Assembly (NCBI GenBank): GCA_916610825.1 | Contig: OU744448.1 | Span: forward strand, 18,041,936-18,105,935 | Direction: 5' to 3' | Length of the DNA stretch: 64,000 bases | Source: Haliclystus octoradiatus | Lineage: Eukaryota; Cnidaria; Staurozoa; Stauromedusae; Haliclystidae | Part shown: in pieces, positions 5,781-53,010 of the stretch | Position numbering within the stretch: the first letter of the stretch is position 1 | How the letters are laid out: each line of letters starts with the position of its first letter | Translations under genes and position numbers: made by a program | Notes under the pieces: generated by a model | Seen by the model: the letters and a program-made list of their open reading frames with translations, nothing else | What the model was told of the DNA's origin: nothing | Database searches by the model: none

Positions 5781-5824
5781 TATATTATCACAGAACCTAT
5801 ATCCATAAAATTAACAATAGCACG

Positions 5825-5995
5825 ATTGGCTATTACGTCGAAAAGTTTTATGTCGAAAAGTTTAACGTCGAAAATTTAACGTCGAAAAAAATAAACCGCA
5901 AAAATGGATGTTTAATGTCGAAAAGCGGTTTTATTGCCATTTTATTTTTCTGCGTTTTTTTTCTGCGATTTTTTTAATTGTGCTGTTAAAGTGGG
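5825..5995. repeat. GTCGAAAA-motif repeat, end of an unknown element
   Basis: Four or more spaced copies of ACGTCGAAAAnTTTA-type motifs follow the sequence GATTGGCTATTACGTCG. The complement of a related block lies at 18479-18566. A short match, GTGCTGTTAAAGTG, occurs at 5981-5994 and, as its near complement, at 18551-18564. It looks like the terminal region of a short DNA transposon or MITE, but I cannot define both ends. Confidence 0.4.
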
Positions 5996-6126
5996 AATAT
6001 ACCCCCAGACTATCTTTACATATGTAGTAGAACTCGACGTGAAAAAAACAATGGCGTAATTTTTTTTTCGATCTGGAAATTATTTCTTGGTGAAAAATGC
6101 CTTCAAAGTGGTGTTTTGACCCAAAT

Positions 6127-6400
6127 GTCGCTGAGAAAAAAAGGGATTGGATCTAGCTTTATGACGACAAAGTCACAAGTCGTGCGGTTTTTCTAATAGT
6201 TAGATCGAATTAGTCACGCGATGTTGCGTTTGAGATGGCGTAGCTCTGTAACAGCAATCTATTTTTCTCTCTCACAAAACTGAGGTAAGGAAGAACATAT
6301 AAACTCAAGAGTAGCAAAATTCCAGATGATTTAATGATTTTGAAGTTTACGAATTTGAAGAAAATAAAAATCAGAAAATGTTTCATTCGTAGCACGTGTT
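6127..6400 (+). repeat. degenerate dispersed repeat, copy 1
   Basis: The block starting CTGAGAAAAAAAGGGATTGG and containing AAAGTCACAAGTCGTGCGG recurs in the same orientation at 13325-13590, right at the edge of the satellite array. The copies diverge by substitutions and small indels. Confidence 0.6.
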
Positions 6401-7597
6401 ATACAGATTATATTTTAACATATCATTCTCACACATATTTAACACATATCAAAAGATTCTCTGGTGACCACAATAGCTAGATAAGTAGAATTTATTGTTG
6501 TAAGCATGAGTCTGAACTGATAATGGAGTATTCTTTTGAGGGTAAAAATCATAACGTATGGCGGGAAACGCTATAAGAACACCATAACCGTTAATTTTAT
6601 AGTCCTCTTTTCACAGAAACGAAATCTGCTCATCTGATTTATCGTCTCTGTAGAAAGGTATTTTTTGCAAAGTATAGCTTCTGCACTGTACATTACCACA
6701 TCCTATAAACTACAGATTGTGATATGAATGATGCTAACATGTTCTACTTTCTAGCCAAAGGAATGAATACTAGACTGGTAATACAATTTGGTGGCGTATG
6801 TATAATCAGGAACGAGACTTCACATTGCAAAACCCTAATTTTGTTAATCAGATAACGTTGGTAGAGAGGATAACAATTTATGCAATGAAGATATAACGCA
6901 AAACCGAAAAATGATAGAATATGCATAACCGTAGTTCTGGTATACGGCTGTAAACTTGTATAAGAACGTCCAAGCCCTCATATCATTGTTGTACTATTTT
7001 CCGATATTTTATAGAATTTTAGAGTGTAATGTACTGAAGAATTTTCGATGCTTTTATAATAATTGAATGCTTGGTGAATAAATGATGAACACTTTGTTAG
7101 ACTATTGAGTATAATATATGATATATCTGTCTACAGTCGTATAAACTATACGATTACATGGTTAAAGAATTACTAGACAAACATCAATTTCAACTTAAAC
7201 TTTGAAATGATAATTGAAAAATGTCTATTTAATAATTTAGTAATGCTTAAAGAAATCCGAAAAAGTACAATTAATACTTTGCAGTACCAACTATTTCGAA
7301 AGAAGAGTCGTCTGTGCATGCCTGTGCAAATCGAGTCAGTTTACATTCACATTTAGATCAAGAAAAGGATATCTTGTAGAAATATTTACTCAAGAACAAA
7401 TTTCAGATAGAGTTAAAAATAGTTATAACTTATTTATATAGCGTAGGATAAAGCTATTTCGAAGGGCACGTGTCTAATTAAGATTTGAAGAAGTACTGCG
7501 GTCACACAGAATACGTAACTAATATGTATCACTAGACTAGTCACAAAGGAACACTCGCACCGCCTGACATTTGTGTTTATCCGCAATCTATATCAGA
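6401..7597. other. no recognisable gene
   Basis: AT-rich DNA with only short chance ORFs. I saw no exon, repeat or RNA gene that I can defend. Confidence 0.5.
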
Positions 7598-8380
7598 GGC
7601 CTGGATTATACAGCGCGCTTTCGAGCGTGCCGTGCTTTCGAGCGCGCTTTCATTTGAAGGCGCGCGCTTTTGAAAATGTCTAGTTATACAGCGAGCCGTC
7701 CTCAAAAGTTATGTAAAAACTTCCAATGAATTACATGATGACGCGTAAGAAAATATATCACAAGACTTTTGATTGACAAGTATACGCTTTTCGTGAAATA
7801 AATTTATTGCTTCAAAAAGTGATTTTTATCACAATTCGCCATCAAATAGTTGTGATTATCGTACAATGATAGTTTTTTAACCTACCATGGTCCTACAAAT
7901 ACAAGACAGTGTCTTATATCTAATCTGCAGAGCATATATATATAACCTTGTCTAATTAATACTATTTGAAAGTTTTCTCCTCTTCAATTGAGAAGTACAG
8001 ATGCTCTGAGTAGTTTCCTTATTATTATTTTGTGGATTTCGATTATAATTCGAAAGAAAATCACTGTTTATTCATCTGTTTATTTGCAAAACGGAACTGT
8101 ATCTAGGCAACGGCCGAGAAAAAGAGGCTAGACATTTCTTTCTCGACATCAACCCCCGGTTTTTACCAAATATGGTGAGAGGAATCCCTGGAATGTCGAA
8201 ATGAAAGTTCGCCTTCAAGTGAAAGCACGCTCTTCCTATGCGAGCTTTCGATTTGGAGCGCGCCGTGCTAATGACAGCGAGCCGTGTCAAGTTAGACGGG
8301 CGCGCCGACAGCGAGCCAACTTTCAATTTACTGTAAACGAAAGCACGGCACGCTCGAAAGCGCGCTGTATAATCCAGGCC
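7598..8380 (+). mobile_element. Harbinger-like MITE, copy 1 (783 bp)
   Basis: Terminal inverted repeats begin GGCCTGGATTATACAGCGCG and run over 40 bases. The interior is rich in short GAAAGC/GCGCGC inverted motifs and has no transposase. Copy 2 at 15184-15966 has the same length, appears identical and is inverted. The termini resemble a third element at 40396-41273 that has a clean TTA target duplication, suggesting the PIF/Harbinger group. The flanks of this copy do not match each other, but they do match the flanks of copy 2 when exchanged (see findings). Confidence 0.85.
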
Positions 8381-8566
8381 TGACTCTATCCGTTCCCGAC
8401 TCCTTTTGTAAAGTACTGCATAAATATAGCACATTTGTAATTGACTAGGTTCCTTCCTTTTTCATTGTTTAATTTCTAGCAGTATTATAACAATTACAAT
8501 GTGTTAAGTTTATAAATCCATTATAGCCTATAAATAATTTGTAAATTAAAATTTATTCTTTTGAAC

Positions 8567-8612
8567 TGACGATGATATAATAAATAATCTATTTGTAGTT
8601 TTTTGTTGCTAT
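8567..8612 (+). repeat. short dispersed repeat (GACGATGrTATAAT...TGTAGTTTTTTGTTGCT)
   Basis: The two sub-blocks recur at 16154-16222 and, less well preserved, at 41289-41353, each time shortly after the right end of a GGCCTGG MITE. It may be the tail of a SINE or of an older element. The identity is unknown. Confidence 0.45.
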
Positions 8613-8649
8613 CTTTCACTCTGAAATGTTTCACGAAGAAACTTTTGAT

Positions 8650-11600
8650 CAATCTCAAATTTAGTTTTCGAAATTAAACTTATCAAGTAACAACGCGACA
8701 TTCCGTATACTTTTAATTTTGAAGGGCTTTTTCATCAAGCTATTGATTTTCGACATGAAACATATCAGGACACAACGCGATTTTCATCACTAACAATAAC
8801 ACATGAATTTGATTCATTACAAACTATACTTAAATAACTATAATTGATAGTTAAAACTACATAAGAAGGTGTATCTATATGGTATCTTTCTACAGTGTCC
8901 AATACTTTTCATTTTAAAGGGTTTTTTAATCAAGTTATTCATTTTCGACATTAAACCTGTCGGGGCAGAACGCGATTCTCATCACTAACAATAACACGTG
9001 AATTTGATTCATTACAAACTATACTTAAATAACTATAATTGATAGTTAAAACTACATAAGAAGGTGTATATATATGGTATCTTTCTACAGTGTCCAATAC
9101 TTTTCATTTTAAAGGGTTTTTTAATCAAGTTATTCATTTTCGACATTAAACCTATCGGGACACAACGCGATTTTCATCACTAACAAAACAATAACACATG
9201 AAAATTTGATTCATTACAAACTATACTTAAATAACTATAATTGATAGTTAAAACTACATAAGAAGGTGTATCTATATGTTACCTTTCTACGGTGTCCAAT
9301 ACTTTTCATTTTAAAGGGTTTTTTAATCAAGTTATTCATTTTCGACATTAAACCTGTCGGGGCAGAACGCGATTCTCATCACTAACAATAACACATGAAT
9401 TTGATTCATTACAAACTATACTTAAATAACTATAATTGATAGTTAAAACTACATAAGAAGGTGTATCTATGTGTTACCTTTCTACAGTGTCCAATACTTT
9501 TCATTTTAAAGGGTTTTTTAATCAAGTTATTCATTTTCGACATTAAACCTATCGGGACACAACGCGATTTTCATCACTAACAATAACACATGAATTTGAT
9601 TCATTACAAACTATACTTAAATAACTATAATTGATAGTTAAAACTACATAAGAAGGTGTATCTATATGGTATCTTTCTACAGTGTCCAATACTTTTCATT
9701 TTAAAGGGTTTTTTAATCAAGTTATTCATTTTCGACATTAAACCTGTCGGGGCAGAACGCGATTCTCATCACTAACAATAACACATGAATTTGATTCATT
9801 ACAAACTATACTTAAATAACTATAATTGATAGTTAAAACTACATAAGAAGGTGTATCAATATGTTACCTTTCTACAGTGTCCAATACTTTTCATTTTAAA
9901 GGGTTTTTTAATCAAGTTATTCATTTTCGACATTAAACCTATCGGGACACAACGCGATTTTCACATAACGCGATTTTCATCACTAACAATAACACATGAA
10001 TTTGATTCATTTCAAACTCTACTTAAATAACTATAATTGATAGTTAAAACTACATAAGAAGGTGTATCTATATGGTATCTTTTTACAGTGTCCAATACTT
10101 TTCATTTTAAAAGGTTTTTTAATCAAGTTATTCATTTTCGACATTAAACCTATCGGGACACAACGCGATTTTCATCACTAACAATAACACATGAATTTGA
10201 TTCATTACAAACTATACTTAAATAACTATAATTGATAGTTAAAACTACATAAGAAGGTGTATCTATACGTTACTTTTCTACAGTGTCCAATACTTTTCCT
10301 TTTAAAGGGTTTTTTAATCAAGTTATTCATTTTCGACATTAAACCTATCGGGGCAGAACGCGATTCTCATCACTAACAATAACACATGAATTTGATTCAT
10401 TACAAACTATACTTAAATAACTATAATTGATAGTTAAAACTACATAAGAAGGTGTATCAATATGTTACCTTTCTACAGTGTCCAATACTTTTCATTTTAA
10501 AGGGTTTTTTAATCAAGTTATTCATTTTCGACATTAAACCTATCGGGACACAACGCGATTTTCACATAACGCGATTTTCATCACTAACAATAACACATGG
10601 ATTTGATTCATTTCAAACTCTACTTAAATAACTATAATTGATAGTTAAAACTACATAAGAAGGTGTATCTATATGGTATCTTTTTACAGTGTCCAATACT
10701 TTTCATTTTAAAAGGTTTTTTAATCAAGTTATTCATTTTCGACATTAAACCTATCGGGACACAACGCGATTTTCATCACTAACAATAACACATGAATTTG
10801 ATTCATTACAAACTATACTTAAATAACTATAATTGATAGTTAAAACTACATAAGAAGGTGTATCTATATGGTATCTTTCTACAGTGTCCAATACTTTTCA
10901 TTTTAAAGGGTTTTTTAATCAAGTTATTCATTTTCGACATTAAACCTGTCGGGGCAGAACGCGATTCTCATCACTAACAATAACACATGAATTTGATTCA
11001 TTACAAACTATACTTAAATAACTATAATTGATAGTTAAAACTACATAAGAAGGTGTATCAATATGTTACCTTTCTACAGTGTCCAATACTTTTCATTTTA
11101 AAGGGTTTTTTAATCAAGTTATTCATTTTCGACATTAAACCTATCGGGACACAACGCGATTTTCACATAACGCGATTTTCATCACTAACAATAACACATG
11201 AATTTGATTCATTTCAAACTCTACTTAAATAACTATAATTGATAGTTAAAACTACATAAGAAGGTGTATCTATATGGTATCTTTTTACAGTGTCCAATAC
11301 TTTTCATTTTAAAAGGTTTTTTAATCAAGTTATTCATTTTCGACATTAAACCTATCGGGACACAACGCGATTTTCATCACAAACAATAACACATGAATTT
11401 GATTCATTACAAACTATACTTAAATAACTATAATTGATAGTTAAAACTACATAAGAAGGTGTATCTATACGTTACTTTTCTACAGTGTCCAATACTTTTC
11501 CTTTTAAAGGGTTTTTTAATCAAGTTATTCATTTTCGACATTAAACCTATCGGGGCAGAACGCGATTCTCATCACTAACAATAACACATGAATTTGATTC

Positions 11601-13325
11601 ATTACAAACTATACTTAAATAACTATAATTGATAGTTAAAACTACATAAGAAGGTGTATCAATATGTTACCTTTCTACAGTGTCCAATACTTTTCATTTT
11701 AAAGGGTTTTTTAATCAAGTTATTCATTTTCGACATTAAACCTATCGGGACACAACGCGATTTTCATCACTAACAATAACACATGAATTTGATTCATTAC
11801 AAACTATACTTAAATAACTATAATTGATAGTTAAAACTACATAAGAAGGTGTATCTATACGTTACCTTTCTACAGTGTCCAATACTTTTCATTTTAAAGG
11901 GTTTTTTAATCAAGTTATTCATTTTCGACATTAAACCTATCGGGACACAACGCGATTTTCATCACAAACAATAACACATGAATTTGATTCATTACAAACT
12001 ATACTTAAATAACTATAATTGATAGTTAAAACTACATAAGAAGGTGTATCTATACGTTACCTTTCTACAGTGTCCAATACTTTTCATTTTAAAGGGTTTT
12101 TTTAATCAAGTTATTCATTTTCGACATTAAACCTATCGGGACACAACGCGATTTTCATCACAAACAATAACACATGAATTTGATTCATTACAAACTATAC
12201 TTAAATAACTATAATTGATAGTTAAAACTACATAAGAAGGTGTATCTATACGTTACTTTTCTACAGTGTCCAATACTTTTCCTTTTAAAGGGTTTTTTAA
12301 TCAAGTTATTCATTTTCGACATTAAACCTATCGGGACACAACGCGATTTTCATCACTAACAATAACACATGAATTTGATTAATTACAAACTATACTTAAA
12401 TAACTATAATTGATAGTTAAAACTACATAAGAAGGTGTATCTATATGTTACCTTTCTACAGTGTCCAATACTTTTCATTTTAAAGGGTTTTTTAATCAAG
12501 TTATTCATTTTCGACATTAAACCTATCGGGACACAGCGCGATTTTCACATAACGCGATTTTCATCACTAACAATAACACATGAATTTGATTCATTTCAAA
12601 CTCTACTTAAATAACTATAATTGATAGTTAAAACTACATAAGAAGGTGTATCTATATGGTATCTTTTTACAGTGTCCAATACTTTTCATTTTAAAAGGTT
12701 TTTAAATCAAGTTATTCATTTTCGACATTAAACCTATCGGGACACAACGCGATTTTCATCACAAACAATAACACATGAATTTGATTCATTACAAACTATA
12801 CTTAAATAACTATAATTGATAGTTAAAACTACATAAGAAGGTGTATCTATACGTTACTTTTCTACAGTGTCCAATACTTTTCCTTTTAAAGGGTTTTTTA
12901 ATCAAGTTATTCATTTTGGACATTAAACCTATCGGGGCAGAACGCGATTCTCATCACTAACAATAACACATGAATTTGATTCATTACAAACTATACTTAA
13001 ATAACTATAATTGATAGTTAAAACTACATAAGAAGGTATATCAATATGTTACCTTTCTACAGTGTCCAATACTTTTCATTTTAAAGGGTTTTTTAATCAA
13101 GTTATTCATTTTCGACATTAAACCTATCGGGACACAGCGCGATTTTCACATAACGCGATTTTCATCACTAACAATAACACATGAATTTGATTCATTACAA
13201 ACTCTACTTAAATAACTATAATTGATAGTTAAAACTACATAAGAAGGTGTATCTATATGGTATCTTTTTACAGTGTCCAATACTTTTCATTTTAAAGAGT
13301 TTTTTAATCAAGTTATTCATTTTCG
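8650..13325 (+). repeat. satellite array 1, ~23 monomers of ~196 bp
   Basis: Tandem units carry landmarks such as CATAAGAAGGTGTATC, TTTCGACATTAAACCT and GGACACAACGCGATTTTC. The spacing between landmarks is 195-202 bp. The first one or two units (8650-8820) are degenerate. Each unit contains the dyad TAACTAT-AATTG-ATAGTTA. Variant monomers with a 16-bp insertion (CACATAACGCGATTTT) recur about every 602 bp, indicating a trimeric higher-order unit. No ORF is conserved across units. The array ends abruptly at the repeat starting 13325. Confidence 0.95.
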
Positions 13326-13590
13326 CTGAGAAAAAAAGGGATTGGATAAAGTCACAAGTCGTGCGGTTTGTCTAACAGACTTTAGAGTTGGCTGATTACG
13401 CGACGCTATCTTTGAGGTGACCTAGCTCCGAGAGGTCACACAACAAAAATTTCTGACAAGGCTGAGCCATGAACAAACATATACACTCCCGAATTACGTA
13501 AAAAGATGCAATTTTTGATTACAGGAGCAGAATAAAATCTATTGCAACGCTCAGTCGAAATAATTTCTCGTAGCGTCATTAAGCGCGATG
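13325..13590 (+). repeat. degenerate dispersed repeat, copy 2
   Basis: Same orientation as 6127-6400 and sharing CTGAGAAAAAAAGGGATTGG and AAAGTCACAAGTCGTGCGG. It abuts the last satellite monomer. Confidence 0.6.
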
Positions 13591-13601
13591 AATCTGATAT
13601 A

Positions 13602-15176
13602 TATGATGGTATATGCGATAAAAAACACAATAATTGGCGCAACAGTTTCGATTTAATCTAAAATCATCTTCAGGCAATGTAAAAAGAGAGAGTTAAAAAG
13701 TTACATGAATATTTATATAAAAATCTAATTAATTTGTCTATTGTCTTGTGTGACATGCGCGATGCTGTCATGTCGGCCAATCAAGTCGGCAATTTTTTCA
13801 ACAACGACCAGAGGAAATACAGAAAGTTGGTAATCAATCTGATAGAATATTTTTCATTGATGAATGGATTTTGGATTATTTGTTTTTGGTTGTAATAATT
13901 ATTTCATTGTATCTGTCTTAAAGTATATCCGTACTTGGTTTTTCTGTTTGTCAATTTGTACTAAACTATTGCTATTCCATATTCATAGTTACGCTAAATC
14001 TAACTGTTGTTATCTTGTGTGACATGCGCGATGCTGTCATGTCGACCACTCAGGTCGGCAATATATTAAACAACGACCGGAAGAAATACAGAAAATGGAA
14101 GAATAATACCAAAGAGCATTTTGCCGCTGTTAAACTATTTTTGATTGTAACTGTTATTTCACCGTGTTTGTATCGTATATATTCGTAATCTTATGCTAAA
14201 ATATCTCTCCTGTAATTATTGTTTGCCATTGTTAAAAAGTATAATACCGTTCCGATAAATTCAATAGACAAATTAATTAGATTTTTATATAAATATTCAT
14301 GTAATTTTTTAACTCTATTCATTCATTTATTTGCCAAAAAATGACAGGCAAGAACAAAGGAGAGTTTGCACCCTCACTAACATGTGGCCTAAGTAATATA
14401 TATAATACATGAATAAGAAGATAATTAATGTGTGATAAATTGATTGTATATAAGTAATTAATTTAAAGATATTGTTGCAATGATTAACTGATTAACCATA
14501 GCCAAAAATTTTGCAATGTGATAACGTGTTTACTTTTTCGAGTGATGCCTTGAACTCTTTGACATTCTTAGAATTAACTGCAAAGTCCGGTAGTGAGTTC
14601 CACCATGGTATCACTCTGTTGTTAAACATAAATTTCGTAATATTGGTCCTACACATTTGCGTTGAATATAGTTTGTAAGGATGACCACGCATTGTATATT
14701 TGTTTACAAGATATTTACAATTTATCGAATCAAGAGATAAATCAACTAAGTCATGCGTGATTTTATAAATCATGATTAAATCAGCTTTAACCCTCCTCGA
14801 CTCTAATGATTCTAGCTTGAGGAGCTTTAGGCGATCACAGTAATCAATAAATTTGAGGTTGGCAACGTTACATATGAATCTTGTAAAAAATCGCTGAATT
14901 TTTTCTAGCAATACGATATCTTTTGCTAAGCAAGGGTTCCAAACTGGGGAACAAGTCTCTAGAATAGGTCTTACATAGACTTTGAATGCATTTAATAATA
15001 AGGGATCTTTCGATGTAAATGATTTCATAATTAAGTAAGAACGTCAATCTTTTTACATTACATTACATTTACTTTTTACATGATTTTAGATTAAATCGAA
15101 ACTGTTGCGCCAATTATTGTGTGTTTTTTATCGCATATACCATCATGAAATTCATGTCAAGTAAACCTTTACCAAG
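13602..15176 (+). mobile_element. fold-back element, copy 1, with LINE insert and partly deleted left arm
   Basis: The left end (GATGGTATATGCGATAAAAA) and the right end (its complement plus the tail GAAATTCATGTCAAGTAAAC) match the copy at 31994-33577. The left arm jumps at about 13737 straight into right-arm sequence, so most of the left arm is lost. A CR1/L2-like LINE interrupts the right arm at about 14325-15045. The 11-bp target duplication AATCTGATATA (13591-13601) has its first seven bases at 15177-15183. The remainder is found only after undoing the MITE-mediated inversion. The ~269-bp internal repeat (copies near 13744 and 14013) still reads as the membrane-protein-like sequence but with stop codons. 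Confidence 0.8.
14325..15045 (-). pseudogene. 5'-truncated CR1/L2-like LINE, RT C-terminal part
   Basis: The - strand ORF 14492-15028 (178 aa) matches the post-catalytic end of non-LTR reverse transcriptases: YVRPILETCSPVWNPCL, then KIQRFFTRFI, then LKLLKLESLESRR and DLIMIYKITH. The catalytic FADD block is missing, so it is 5'-truncated. The 3' end carries a TTTTTTGGCAAATAAATG-type tail with repeated AATG, as in CR1/L2 elements. It was inserted into the right arm of the fold-back element, since matching arm sequence resumes at about 15060. Confidence 0.85.
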
Positions 15177-15183
15177 AATCTGA

Positions 15184-15966
15184 GGCCTGGATTATACAGC
15201 GCGCTTTCGAGCGTGCCGTGCTTTCGTTTACAGTAAATTGAAAGTTGGCTCGCTGTCGGCGCGCCCGTCTAACTTGACACGGCTCGCTGTCATTAGCACG
15301 GCGCGCTCCAAATCGAAAGCTCGCATAGGAAGAGCGTGCTTTCACTTGAAGGCGAACTTTCATTTCGACATTCCAGGGATTCCTCTCACCATATTTGGTA
15401 AAAACCGGGGGTTGATGTCGAGAAAGAAATGTCTAGCCTCTTTTTCTCGGCCGTTGCCTAGATACAGTTCCGTTTTGCAAATAAACAGATGAATAAACAG
15501 TGATTTTCTTTCGAATTATAATCGAAATCCACAAAATAATAATAAGGAAACTACTCAGAGCATCTGTACTTCTCAATTGAAGAGGAGAAAACTTTCAAAT
15601 AGTATTAATTAGACAAGGTTATATATATATGCTCTGCAGATTAGATATAAGACACTGTCTTGTATTTGTAGGACCATGGTAGGTTAAAAAACTATCATTG
15701 TACGATAATCACAACTATTTGATGGCGAATTGTGATAAAAATCACTTTTTGAAGCAATAAATTTATTTCACGAAAAGCGTATACTTGTCAATCAAAAGTC
15801 TTGTGATATATTTTCTTACGCGTCATCATGTAATTCATTGGAAGTTTTTACATAACTTTTGAGGACGGCTCGCTGTATAACTAGACATTTTCAAAAGCGC
15901 GCGCCTTCAAATGAAAGCGCGCTCGAAAGCACGGCACGCTCGAAAGCGCGCTGTATAATCCAGGCC
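15184..15966 (-). mobile_element. Harbinger-like MITE, copy 2 (783 bp), inverted
   Basis: Reverse complement of 7598-8380 with equal length. All stretches I compared are identical, including the 60-codon chance ORF. The left flank is CCAAGAATCTGA and the right flank TCACTCTGAG, so the immediate flanks do not form a duplication with each other. Its inverted relation to copy 1 made it a substrate for recombination. Confidence 0.85.
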
Positions 15967-16779
15967 TCACTCTGAGTGCATTGTGAGGTTTTTTATCAAG
16001 GATAATTAACATTTCATGTACTACACAGTCGAATTTATTGCTACATTTTTCTCTACTGAAAATAAATGTTGTGATTCATCCATAGTTTTATTGTGGGAAT
16101 GTAAATGTCTTCTGATAATATCTTCCGTGAATGTAAAATTGTAATTGTATTTGAACTGACGATGGTATAATGAATAATACCCAAATTTTTTCAACATCAC
16201 TTCTTGTAGTTTTTTGTTGCTTTGAAATAAATTTAAGATGGAATTGTAATAAAATAATAAACCCTCGTATTAGGTTAATACTATAAGTTATTAGATATAT
16301 ATTTTTTTGGGGGGGTGTAACACGGTAATTGGGGGGGCCAACTTGACAGAGGTGTAATTCCAGCCTCTTCAAAGAACAAAACTTGAAAATGCTCCTAAAA
16401 AGTTCCTAAAATCCAACAAAATACGGTAATTTTTTATTTTTCCAATTCAAAGTTGATTTCTCAAAACTCTCAACAAATTTGAAAAGGAGACTAAAATCTG
16501 AATTTTGCAATCCAATTGTTCTCATCGTAATCGTTTATCGGGGTGAACAATTTAATCCATCGTTTTATCACGTAGTTCTTTGTTTCACTATTACGTTTGA
16601 CCATGGTTTGACTATTTCTCAAAAATGTAGTGTATTTCCGCAGTATCCTTTTGCCACCGGGATTGTGTCTGTTTAACAGTGGGGAATCTGTCATAACAAA
16701 GCGAACAAAGTTAGTGTACGTGTAAATAAGATAAATTCAAATGTAATATAGTTAAAAGTTGGCAAGTGCACGCCCTTGC
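15967..16779. other. no recognisable gene
   Basis: AT-rich DNA with a short dispersed repeat at 16154-16222 and two G-runs at 16311-16342 (GGGGGGG). The ORFs are chance readings. Confidence 0.5.
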
Positions 16780-18310
16780 TATATAGGTGCACGTTGGTTT
16801 AATAGTCTTCATATTTAATTAAAATTTTGATTGCACCACCATGCGATAGGTACACGCCAGTAATATCCATATGTAAAATAGTTTTTTAAGTGCGCGCCCT
16901 GCTATATGTGCACGCCGGTACTCTTCTATATATTTAGTTTTATATGCACGCCCTGCTATAGGTGCACGCCGGTAATAATCTTCATATTTAAATTCAAGTT
17001 TTAAATGCACGCCCTGCTATAGGTGCACGCTGGTAATATTCTTTATATTTAGTTTGATGTGCACGCCGGTAACATTCTTCAGATTTAAATTTAAGTTTTA
17101 AGTGCACGCCCTCCTACAAGTTTCCCTGTATTTGCCTGTCACCATTGTTGACAAATAAAATACATACATACAAATAGGTGCACGCCGGTAATATTCTTTA
17201 TATTTAGTTTTATGTGCACGCCGGTAACATTCTTCAGATTTAAATTTAAGTTTTAAGTGCACGCCGGTAATAGTCTTTATATTTAGTTTTATGTGCACGC
17301 CGGTAACATTCTTCAGATTTAAATTTAAGTTTTAAGTGCACGCCCTCCTATAGGTGCACGCCGGTAATATTCTTTATATTTAGTTTTATGTGCACGCCCT
17401 GCTATAGATGCACGCCGGTAATAATCTTCATAGTTAAATTCAAGTTTTAAGTGCACGCCCTGCTATAGGTGCACGCTGGTAATATTCTTTATATTTAGTT
17501 TGATGTGCACGCCGGTAATATTCTTCAGATTTAAATTTAAGTTTTAAGTGCACGCCCTCCTATAGGTGCACGCCGGTAATATTCTTTATATTTAGTTTTA
17601 TGTGCACGCCCTGCTATAGATGCACGCCGGTAATAATCTTCATATTTAAATTCAAGTTTTAAGTGCACGCCCTGCTATAGGTGCACGCCGGTAATATTCT
17701 TTATATTTAGTTTCATGTGCACGCCCCTGCTATGTACACGCCGATAATATTCGTATTTAAAGAAGTTTTTAAGTGCACGCCCTGCTATAGGTGCACGCCG
17801 GTAATAATCTTCATATTTAAATTCAAGTTTTAAGTGCACGCCCTGCTATAGGTGCACGCCGGTAATATTCTTTATATTTAGTTTCATGTGTACGCCCCTG
17901 CTATAGGTGCACGCCGGTAATAATCTTCATATTTAAATTCAAGTTTTAAATGCACGCCCTCCTATACGTGCACGCTGGTACTATTCTTTATATTTAGACG
18001 ATACGATAGGGTGCACGCCGGTAATATTCTTCATATTTAAATTCAAATTATAAGTGCACGCTCATACGATAAGTGCACTCCGGTAATATTCTTATTTAGT
18101 TTTATGTGCACGCCCCTACTATAAGTACACGCGGCCGGTGATATTCTTCATATTTAAATTCAAGTTATAAGTGCACGCCCATACGATAGATGCACGCCAG
18201 TAATATTATTCATATTTAAAAAAAAATAAAGGGCACGCCCATGAGATAGGTGCACGCTCTTAACATTTAAAAACTTTTACGTCCACGCCTCTGTTTTAGG
18301 TGCACGCTGT
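16780..18310. repeat. GTGCACGCC minisatellite array
   Basis: Irregular tandem units of about 54-60 bp carry GTGCACGCC followed by either CTGCTATAGG or GGTAATATTCTT, then an AT-rich stretch TTTAAATTCAAGTTTTA. Pairs of units alternate. Copies degrade towards the right end (TCATACGATAAG variants). The palindrome GTGCAC occurs dozens of times. ORFs across it (for example 16819-17010 -) encode only repeat peptides. Confidence 0.9.
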
Positions 18311-18469
18311 CGATATTTTAGGTTTTCGTTTCGTGTAAAATTGCGGTAATTATTTTACTTCCGCGGCAAATCGTGCCGGCTCCTTCTTGTATCTACGTCA
18401 TTTCGTGCAAAATTGCGGCGACAATTTTTGCCGCGCGGCAAAATATCGTAGATGCACGTGGAAAAACGT

Positions 18470-18566
18470 ACATTTTGGGATTTATGTCGAAAATTTAACG
18501 TCGAAAAAATTTTTTCGACGTTAAACTTTTCGACGTTATAGCGTACAATCACTTTAATAGCACCCT
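18470..18566. repeat. GTCGAAAA palindromic block
   Basis: ACGTCGAAAAAATTTTTTCGACGT forms a hairpin, flanked by further TTAACGTCGAAAA motifs, and ends in ATAGCGTACAATCACTTTAA. It is inversely related to 5825-5995. Confidence 0.5.
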
Positions 18567-31981: not shown

Positions 31982-31993
31982 CTCTTTTATTTC

Positions 31994-33577
31994 ATGATGG
32001 TATTTGCGATAAAAAACACACAATAATTGGCGCAACAGTTTCGATTTAATCTAAAATCATCTTCAGGCAATGTGAAAAGAGAGAGTTAAAAAGTTACATG
32101 AATATTTATATAAAAATCTAATTAATTTATCTATTGAATTTATCGGAACGGTATTATACTTTTTAACAATGGCAAACAATAATTACAGGAGAGATATTTT
32201 AGCACAAGAACTAATTACGAATATACGATACAAACACGGTGAAATAACAGTTACAATCAAAAATAGTTTAACAGCGGCAAAATGCTCTTTGGTATTGTTC
32301 TTCCATTTTCTGTATTTCTTCTGGTCGTTGTTTAATATATTGCCGACCTGAGTGGTCGACATGACAGCATCGCGCATGTCACACAAGATAACAACAGTTA
32401 GATTTAGCGTAACTATGAATATGGAATAGTAATAGTTTAGAACAAATTGACAAACAGAAAAACTAAGTACGGATATACTATAAGACAGATACAATGAAAT
32501 AATTATTACAACCAAAAACAAATAATCCAAAATCCATTCATCAATGGCAAAATGTTCTATCAGATTGATTACCAACTTTCTGTATTTCCTCTGGTCGTTG
32601 TTGAAAAAATTGCCGACCTGATTGGCCGACATGACAGCATCGCGCATGTCACACAAGATAACAACAGTTAGATATAACGTAACTATGAAAGTTAATTCAA
32701 AATCTTTTAGGCCACATTGACACCAAATAAATCGATGAGGTATTCCCTCCGGTCTGTAAATATACCATATCATTGAAACTCCAAATAAAAACAACAAAAT
32801 AATCTTCGTACAACATCCAAAATATAAGTAAAATATATACGACGACAACATTTATATCTCCAGATGTAATTGATAATGAATTGCCACACCTCCCAAGTCA
32901 CTTAGAAAAGTGTAGCTGGCTATCAACACTTTTTCAACAACGACCAGAGGAAATACAGAAAGTTGGTAATCAATCTGATAGAACATTTTGCCATTGATGA
33001 ATGGATTTTGGATTATTTGTTTTTGGTTGTAATAATTATTTCATTGTATCTGTCTTATAGTATATCCGTACTTAGTTTTTCTGTTTGTCAATTTGTTCTA
33101 AACTATTACTATTCCATATTCATAGTTACGCTAAATCTAACTGTTGTTATCTTGTGTGACATGCGCGATGCTGTCATGTCGACCACTCAGGTCGGCAATA
33201 TATTAAACAACGACCAGAAGAAATACAGAAAATGGAAGAACAATACCAAAGAGCATTTTGCCGCTGTTAAACTATTTTTGATTGTAACTGTTATTTCACC
33301 GTGTTTGTATCGTATATTCGTTAAATTAGTTCTTGTGCTAAAATATCTCTCCTGTAATTATTGTTTGCCATTGTTAAAAAGTATAATACCGTTCCGATAA
33401 ATTCAATAGATAAATTAATTAGATTTTTATATAAATATTCATGTAACTTTTTAACTCTCTCTTTTCACATTGCCTGAAGATGATTTTAGATTAAATCGAA
33501 ACTGTTGCGCCAATTATTGTGTGTTTTTTATCGCAAATACCATCATGAAATTCATGTCAAGTAAACCTTTACGAAGA
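31994..33577. mobile_element. fold-back element, copy 2 (1584 bp, near-complete)
   Basis: Arms of about 615 bp (31994-32608 and 32930-33546) are complementary with few mismatches around a 321-bp loop. A 31-bp tail (GAAATTCATGTCAAGTAAAC...) extends only the right end and is conserved in copy 1. A perfect 12-bp target duplication CTCTTTTATTTC (31982-31993 and 33578-33589) lies in LINE A ORF2. No transposase is recognised. Variable 11-12-bp duplications and the one-sided tail argue for target-primed insertion rather than cut-and-paste. Confidence 0.85.
32183..32851 (-). CDS. uncharacterised repeat membrane protein-like ORF in the fold-back element
   Basis: 222 codons starting in the loop and running through the left arm. 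Several hydrophobic segments are separated by two near-identical blocks: TVVILCDMRDAVMSANQVGN and TVVILCDMRDAVMSTTQVGN, each followed by NNDQ(R/K)KYRK. The blocks are ~269 bp apart in DNA. The intervening segment (DYLFLVVIIISLYLSY) could span membranes. The mirror frame in the right arm (32963-33400 +, 145 codons) encodes the same second half because the arms are palindromic. I do not recognise the family. A captured fragment of a polytopic host protein and a chance ORF in repeat DNA are both possible. Copy 1 has stops in it. Confidence 0.35.
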   Translation of the reverse strand: MLSSYIFYLYFGCCTKIILLFLFGVSMIWYIYRPEGIPHRFIWCQCGLKDFELTFIVTLYLTVVILCDMRDAVMSANQVGNFFNNDQRKYRKLVINLIEHFAIDEWILDYLFLVVIIISLYLSYSISVLSFSVCQFVLNYYYSIFIVTLNLTVVILCDMRDAVMSTTQVGNILNNDQKKYRKWKNNTKEHFAAVKLFLIVTVISPCLYRIFVISSCAKISLL

Positions 33578-33589
33578 CTCTTTTATTTC

Positions 33590-39626: not shown

Positions 39627-40361
39627 TCTAAACTTATTACATTCTATTCATTCTATTACTTCTATAAAAGTTTCGAACAGATGGGTGGATGGATAGATGG
39701 ATGGATGGATGGATGGATGGATGGATGGATGGATGGATGGATGGATGGATGGATGGATGGATGGATGGATGGATGGATGGATGGATGGATGGATGGATGG
39801 ATGGATGGATGGATGGATGGATGGATGGATGGATGGATGGATGGATGGATGGATGGATGGATAGATGGATGGATGGATGGATGGATGGATGGATGGATGG
39901 ATGGATGGATGGATGGATGGATGGATGGATGGATGGATGGATGGATGGATGGATGGATGGATGGATGGATGGATGGATGGATGGATGGATGGATGGATTG
40001 ATGGATGGATGGATGGATGGATGGATGGATGGATGGATGGATGGATGGATGGATGGATGGATGGATGGATGGATGGATGGATGGATGGATGGATGGATGG
40101 ATGGATGGATGGATGGATGGATGGATGGATGGATGGATGGATGGATGGATGGATGGATGGATGGATGGATGGATGGATGGATGGATGGATGGATGGATGG
40201 ATGGATGGATGGATGGATGGATGGATGGATGGATGGATGGATGAAATGTTTAGTGCATGTAATGCTCGCGATCTGCGAAAGAAGACCGACTCTCAACACC
40301 CAGACCGATTCAATCCGTTCGAAACTTCTTTTATAGAATGAATAGAATGTAATAAGTTTAG
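39627..40361. repeat. (GGAT)n tract flanked by ~45-bp inverted repeats
   Basis: The tract is at about 39682-40241: roughly 140 units of GGAT with only a few interruptions (GATAGATG, GATTGATG). The left flank (39627-39680) and right flank (40318-40361) are near-complementary: TAAACTTATTACATTC at the left edge against GAATGTAATAAGTTTA at the right. All long ORFs here (MDGW repeats on +, HPSI repeats on -) are by-products of the repeat. Confidence 0.9.
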
Positions 40362-51499: not shown

Positions 51500-53010
51500 A
51501 GAACAAACGCTTATGGCTGAGTAACTCAACATTTTTTACAATTAGGAACTGAAAATTAATTATAAAGTTAGATATCTGTTGAAGAACATTTCTGTGAATT
51601 TTGGATGCAAAATATCATCTTTGGACTAAAAATCAAACCAAGCATGGGGTATCTAACTTTTGCAGTAATAACCCTATATACGTACAAACGCTTATGGCTG
51701 AGTAACTCAACATTTTTTACAATTAGGAATTGAAATTTAATTTGGTAGTGTGTTTATAGATTTAAAACATTTCTGTGAATTTTGGATGCAAAATATTATC
51801 TTTGGACCAAAAATCATACTAAGCCTGGAGTATCTAACTTGTGTAATTTTGCAGTAATAACCCTATATACATACAAACGCTTATGGCTGAGTAACTCAAC
51901 ATTTTTTACAATTAGGAATTGAAATTTAATTTGGTAGTGTGTTTATGGATTTAAAACATTTCTGGGAATTTTGGATGCAAAATATCATCTTTGGACTAAA
52001 ATTCAAACCAAGCATGGGGTATCTAACTTTTGCAGTAATAACCCTATATACGTACAAACGCTTATGGCTGAGTAACTCAACATTTTTTACAATTAGGAAT
52101 TGAAATTTAATTTGGTAGTGTGTTTATAGATTTAAAACATTTCTGTGAATTTTGGATGCAAAATATTATCTTTGGACCAAAAATCATACTAAGGCTGGAG
52201 TATCTAACTTGTGTAATTTTGCAGTAATAACCCTATATACGTACAAACGCTTATGGCTGAGTAACTTAACATTTTTTCAATTAGGAACTGAAAATTAATT
52301 AAATAGTTAGATATCTGTTGAAGAACATTTCTGTGAATTTTGGATGCAAAATATCATCTTTGGACTAAAAATCAAACCAAGCATGGGGTATCTAACTTTT
52401 GCAGTAATAACCCTATATACGTACAAACGCTTATGGCTGAGTAACTCAACATTTTTTACAATTAGGAATTGAAATTTAATTTGGTAGTGTGTTTATAGAT
52501 TTAAAACATTTCTGTGAATTTTGGATGCAAAATATTATCTTTGGACCAAAAATCATACTAAGCCTGGAGTATCTAACTTGTGTAATTTTGCAGTAATAAC
52601 CCTATATACGTACAAACGCTTATGGCTGAGTAACTCAACATTTTTTACAATTAGGAATTGAAATTTAATTTGGTAGTGTGTTTATGGATTTAAAACATTT
52701 CTGTGAATTTTGGATGCAAAATATTATCTTTGGACCAAAAATCATACTAAGGCTGGAGTATCTAACTTGTGTAATTTTGCAGTAATAACCCTATATACGT
52801 ACAAAAGCTTATGGCTGAGTAACTCAACATTTTTTACAATTAGGAACTGAAAATTAATTATATAGTTAGATATCTGTTGAAGAACATTTCTGTTAATTTA
52901 GGAAGCAAAATATTATCTTTGGACCAAAAATCATACTAATTTTGCAGTAATAACCCTATATACGTACAAACGCTTATGGTTGAGTAACTCAATATGTTGT
53001 ACAATTAGGA
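51500..53010 (+). repeat. satellite array 2, 9 monomers alternating 181 and 189 bp
   Basis: Units share ACAAACGCTTATGGCTGAG, GATGCAAAATATTATCTTTGG and TTGCAGTAATAACCCTATA. Landmark spacing is 181, 189, 181, 189, 180, 189, 189 and 164 bp. Short units carry AAGCATGGGGTATC, long ones AAGCCTGGAGTATC plus TTGTGTAAT, so the base unit is a ~370-bp dimer. It lies between the secreted-protein candidate and the 3' end of the TNP2-like gene. No coding sense. Confidence 0.95.

Follow-up and report, generated by a model that had tools for sequence, protein, structure and literature searches.

Two identical inverted MITEs around an inverted block in a large mobile element of Haliclystus octoradiatus: a probable product of one aberrant transposition

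Introduction

When an inversion lies between inverted transposon copies whose target duplications have been exchanged, recombination is often named as the cause. The Galileo inversion 2z3 of Drosophila buzzatii has inverted transposon copies at its ends, exchanged target duplications and known empty sites, as does the locus described here; the 2z3 copies are chimeric, for its authors a proof of ectopic recombination, whereas the two miniature elements (MITEs) described here are identical and have a rare allele in common (PMC2775673). Inversion 2Rj of Anopheles gambiae likewise has repeats at both breakpoints and a split duplication, but the repeats are low-copy and 14.6 kb long, and only one duplication set is noted there (PMC1952172). 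The authors of that study considered two routes with the same outcomes, recombination and alternative transposition starting from a single copy, and came to no conclusive decision (PMC1952172).

A second route is described for Drosophila P elements (hybrid element insertion) and maize Ac/Ds (alternative transposition), in which the ends of different copies jump together and opposite-orientation copies are left at both inversion ends, as here; where the partners are sister copies, identical flanking elements and a split of old and new duplications result, much as in the present case (PMC2775673, PMC8225341). Hybrid element insertion leaves identical flanking copies and ectopic recombination chimeric ones, the products being otherwise nearly the same (PMC2775673). 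In Arabidopsis soma, inversions and other changes have been credited to alternative transposition of the class II element VANDAL21, the kind of process proposed here, although those events involve two close head-to-head elements and were seen in reads, and the present case starts from one parent element (PMC12312487). A full-text search, and wider searches by titles and abstract openings among the matches listed, found no case of hybrid element insertion for the Harbinger superfamily.

Here we describe an inversion in a 64,000-nucleotide stretch of the stauromedusan Haliclystus octoradiatus (contig OU744448.1, 18,041,936 to 18,105,935), hereafter the window. Unlike the P and Ac/Ds cases, it involves a PIF/Harbinger-type MITE of 783 bp whose target duplications are 3 bp long, the turned block lies inside another mobile element, and the event was not observed happening but is read from paralogous copies within a single genome. 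Such copies show parental states that are rarely available in natural cases, and sequence can therefore be used to weigh one mechanism against the other.

Two identical MITEs inside a large mobile element

The features of the locus are collected in Table 1. A sequence-only reading of the window had described the two MITEs (hereafter MITE1, left, and MITE2, right) as identical and inverted, and they are indeed exact reverse complements at 783/783 positions. Both MITEs and the inverted block sit inside a 12.7-kb mobile element, which also contains the satellite array and a fold-back element; another short-tandem-repeat region lies within it at 16826-18257. More than 25 further copies of this host element were found in the same genome, a lower bound like all copy numbers from our DNA copy searches, which scored the best 40 candidates only. 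A perfect 8-bp target duplication surrounds six of the eight copies in which both ends were read, the exceptions being the window copy and one at C1:10.5 Mb. Since the surroundings of the duplicated copies also differ from one copy to another, the host element is a transposing element.

Table 1 Features of the inverted locus, in window coordinates
Feature	Position	Strand	Basis or remark
Host mobile element, 12.73 kb	5821..18550	.	Terminal inverted sub-repeats GTCGAAAAGTTT; both boundaries read
Left junction	7593..7597	+	Target duplication TCA (7593-7595) and private GA (7596-7597); GA absent in two sister copies
Left MITE (MITE1), 783 bp, PIF/Harbinger-type	7598..8380	+	Pairwise comparison, family alignment
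Marker base, MITE position 467 = C	8064..8064	+	Only in MITE1, MITE2 and the MITE of two sister copies
Inverted segment, 6,803 bp	8381..15183	- relative to order in other copies	Copy searches and paired breakpoints
TGA, one half of new target site TCA/TGA	8381..8383	+	Flanks abut in 29 un-inverted copies
195-bp satellite array, ~23 units (23.2 copies)	8707..13325	.	Within inverted segment
AATCTGATATA, intact copy of the 11-bp target duplication of the fold-back element	13591..13601	+	Host copies without fold-back element
Fold-back element (terminal inverted repeats)	13602..15176	.	Predates MITE insertion
AATCTGA	15177..15183	+	First seven bases of second 11-bp duplication; final four (TATA) now at 7589-7592
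TGA	15181..15183	+	Other half of original TCA/TGA of MITE1
Right MITE (MITE2), identical to MITE1	15184..15966	-	Pairwise comparison, family alignment
TCA, other half of new target site	15967..15969	+	Matching flank in un-inverted copies

Because the window copy is without the 8-bp duplication, we considered a larger rearrangement or ectopic exchange at the ends of the host element and looked for its reciprocal partner. Two pattern searches allowing up to two mismatches gave no exact match; each of the three matches had two mismatches, and one was the flank of the C11 copy itself. The joined window flanks match at least 25 other copies of the target repeat continuously at ~80 percent identity, and in alignments to three of these copies the flanks are collinear, with the missing duplication and small deletions as the only changes. 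The larger rearrangement was rejected on account of this collinearity. Two sister copies of the host element (C4:7.21-7.22 Mb and C2:2.23 Mb) have indels at 6135 and 7114-7120 in common with the window copy, and these are absent from five other aligned copies; the MITE1-bearing element therefore came to occupy at least three places.

The MITE has perfect terminal inverted repeats of 43 bp that start with GGCCTGGATTATACAG. Outside the window, a 3-bp TNA duplication flanks 36 of the 37 copies whose two ends are intact (left triplets TTA in 17, TAA in 16, TCA in 3 and TGA in 1), a count that leaves out the two window copies, two L006 rows and one L007 row whose ends are damaged or fused, and L063, which equals L008. 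Target duplications of PIF/Harbinger elements in plants are 3-bp TTA/TAA (PMC2213677), and staggered cutting at the 3-bp duplication has been proposed for mPing (PMC4561436). By its 3-bp TNA duplication we place the MITE with the PIF/Harbinger (Tourist-like) elements. In the assembly (33 contigs, 262 Mb), where a first look gave 276 MITE candidates, genes for PIF/Harbinger-type transposases are common, with 150 scored matches to their domain, PF13359; 12 of these matches, equal in score, lie in open frames of 525 aa.

The un-inverted order in paralogous copies

The sequence-only reading had held that the block between the MITEs was turned round, on the grounds that the MITE flanks do not match at present (..ATATCAGA / TGACTC.. 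and ..AATCTGA / TCACTC..) and do so once 8381-15183 is flipped. We confirmed the unmatched flanks, and also that the satellite array lies within the flipped block. The un-inverted order, for which that reading had proposed a search, was found in paralogous copies of the same genome.

At the right breakpoint, 30 of the best 40 matches to 15967-16300 have a match to 8381-8720 within 30 kb, and the other 10 are without such a partner. The flanks are un-inverted in 29 of these 30 pairs, abutting on opposite strands with an overlap of three bases in 24 and two bases in 5, and the window alone is inverted. Five of the 29 are diverged relatives with 76-88 percent identity (C11:15.88, C8:1.41, C7:17.18, C5:10.68 and C1:15.64 Mb). 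The left breakpoint has 12 un-inverted pairs out of 13, again with the window as the sole exception; ten of them abut with TCAGA in common, and two (C4:7.22 Mb and C2:2.23 Mb) are separated by one 783-bp MITE. These pairings drew on the best 40 matches per flank for the right site, and for the left site on the first 30 of 40 for one flank and 14 places for the other. Read copy by copy, the left site is un-inverted in 26 copies, of which 19 continue into the fold-back end without a MITE, 2 have both and 5 have neither (the following element was judged by its first 60 bases, and L114 is off site).

With the un-inverted order in all other copies examined, the inversion is derived, and real unless misassembled, and it is private to the window among the copies examined in this one assembly. 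The two sister copies, un-inverted and carrying only MITE1, keep the parental state. The un-inverted order is now read directly in other copies instead of being argued from short matches, and the turning of the block between two MITEs is strongly supported. The inverted block of the window is 209-211 bp shorter than its counterpart in the two sisters, about one satellite unit, a difference that no step proposed below accounts for; the array stretches 8707-10200 and 12090-13344 each show one gap and zero mismatches against the C4 sister. A direct similarity between 8541-8588 and 16127-16178 was also seen.

The flip restores the right flanks to TCA/TCA (GAGTCA[M]TCACTC, with M for the MITE), as had been claimed. 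On the left it gives ATATCAGA[M]TCAGATTC, in which the letters TCAGA match on both sides, but TCAGA is not the target duplication of the MITE that it had been taken for. The two sister copies read ATATCA[M]TCAGATTC at this place, that is, TCA/TCA flanks, and from these junctions and the 3-bp rule of the family TCAGA is therefore TCA followed by a window-private GA.

The 11-bp duplication TATATCAGATT that the earlier reading had assigned to the fold-back element is borne out by host copies without that element. These copies read CAATCTATATCAGATTCATCGCGC, and copies with the fold-back element have TATATCAGATT on both sides. Three of the copies without it (L108, L109 and L112) contain TATATCAGATT once, with 7597 joined to the complement of 13601; L107 has it with one mismatch, and L113 agrees at the site and diverges beyond ~15 bases. 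Once the fold-back element was in place, MITE1 entered the TCA inside one of the two 11-bp repeats, and it is because of the inversion that the TATA of this repeat now stands apart from its AATCTGA.

Origin of the right MITE

Among 42 distinct MITE copies that were aligned (the window row being L002, L063 and L008 counted once, and pieces <700 bp excluded), two copies differ from each other at a median of 12 sites. At position 467 the window pair and the MITEs of the two sisters have C, and the 38 other aligned copies have A. Searching the whole genome for an exact 28-base word, we found the C form at four places, namely the window pair and the two sisters, and the A form at 103. This restriction of C467 to four places indicates that MITE2 was copied from the lineage of MITE1, unless gene conversion erased a difference. 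The MITE at C7:16.7 Mb differs from MITE1 at position 467 and at no other.

Mechanism of the inversion

The earlier reading named recombination between the inverted MITEs as the cause. Its inversion stands, and recombination as the best reading of it does not, as exchanged duplications are equally expected from hybrid element insertion. We consider it rather probable that one aberrant PIF/Harbinger-type transposition of the latter kind made both MITE2 and the flip. The event would start from MITE1 in one copy of the large mobile element. After replication, the transposase would take one end of MITE1 from each of two sister chromatids (or homologues), the left end from one and the right end from its partner, and this hybrid pair of ends would insert 6.8 kb away, at a TCA of the same element. 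Each MITE would stay tied to the donor DNA through its uncut end, so that the intervening DNA would be turned round, with both duplications, the old TCA and the new TCA/TGA, each split between two identical MITEs.

Each of the four junctions follows from hybrid insertion when this is worked through, with TCA in front of the left MITE, TGA at 8381, TGA in front of the right MITE and TCA at 15967; the extra GA does not. In the window the old and new target duplications are split between the two copies, whereas other host copies have both empty sites unbroken. The identity of the MITEs, the rare C467, the copies with MITE1 only, and a MITE at the second site in 0/29 un-inverted paralogous copies together favour a single aberrant transposition. 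The chimeric flanking copies that mark ectopic recombination were not seen, with zero differences between the MITEs, although this mark would be invisible if MITE2 were a fresh copy of MITE1. We infer the single transposition step, the PIF/Harbinger transposase as its enzyme and the sister chromatids as its partners; the leap from MITE2 as a copy of MITE1 to copying and flip in the same event is one of parsimony, not proof.

The alternative that survives best is that MITE1 first transposed locally, inserting 6.8 kb away in opposite orientation with the donor site repaired, and that later homologous recombination flipped the block. Local jumping is known for cut-and-paste elements, and such a history explains the identity, the common C467 and the exchanged duplications equally well. 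It needs two events and an intermediate, however, and MITE2 is in none of the 29 un-inverted copies, paralogues from one assembly, so we regard it as unlikely while giving it real weight. Closest to the idea of the sequence-only reading would be an independent insertion of MITE2, followed by ectopic recombination and by gene conversion that equalised the MITEs. The exchanged duplications and the large family, with 103 A-allele places, agree with this, and as the copy at C7:16.7 Mb is one base away from MITE1, converting a single site might be enough. However, the window copies are not chimeric, 0/103 A-allele places could donate C467 without conversion, and a chance hit in the 12.7-kb element is unlikely (276 x 12.7 kb / 262 Mb, or ~1.3 percent per host copy), which together make such a history improbable. 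An assembly error, with MITE2 real and the block not turned round in the organism, is more improbable still: the repeats are identical over 783 bp and the inversion is read from the assembly only, but the 33 contigs for 262 Mb and the spanned 4.6-kb satellite array suggest long reads, and misjoining leaves the private GA at the left junction unexplained.

The extra GA is predicted neither by hybrid insertion nor by local copying with recombination. It has the same letters as the two bases that come next in the empty site and could be a 2-bp AG duplication across the junction, maybe left behind by an abortive cut. Over the 4,852 bp that were compared outside the array, the window-private changes are 7245 A>G, 7305 A>G and the GA at 7596-7597, all within 353 bp to the left of MITE1; this cluster, which was picked post hoc, is suggestive of a repair scar. 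The two private substitutions per 4,852 bp outside the array indicate that the event was recent on that scale.

If one aberrant transposition is the right reading, MITEs as numerous as those of PIF/Harbinger could create small inversions directly while jumping. We also think it fairly likely that a one-step MITE inversion has here re-ordered a large mobile element from inside, and that the genome keeps the stages, from copies with no fold-back element to those with the fold-back element, with one MITE, and with two MITEs and the inversion.

Other inverted MITE pairs and repeats

We surveyed inverted MITE pairs by eye, within 20 kb, among the matches listed for the A-allele word. A pair at C11:8.135/8.139 Mb was rejected as a further inversion, as it has no exchanged duplications, one copy being intact with TTA/TTA and the other truncated. 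The pair at C4:13.680 Mb was likewise rejected, being a fused inverted dimer with TAA/TAA bounds and no exchanged duplications. Fused inverted dimers bounded by TAA/TAA were seen as L006 (C2:30.30 Mb) and L121 (C4:13.68 Mb), and aberrant transposition might be the maker of these too. The copies L123 and L124 (C7:16.961 and 16.974 Mb) are 12.8 kb apart with both flanks near-identical, probably through local segmental duplication.

Within the fold-back element, the stretch 14317-15048 matches many other places by itself and resembles the 3' end of a retrotransposon; its 178-aa frame had no Pfam match. Elsewhere in the window are a GATG microsatellite at 39680-40243 (564 bp, ~141 units), with open reading frames on both strands, and a tandem array at 51503-52939 with a period of 189/370 bp. 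A second copy of the fold-back element at 31989-33581 is without the stretch 14317-15048, and its flanks point to a 12-bp duplication, CTCTTTTATTTC, and to an asymmetric tail of ~28 bp on the right.
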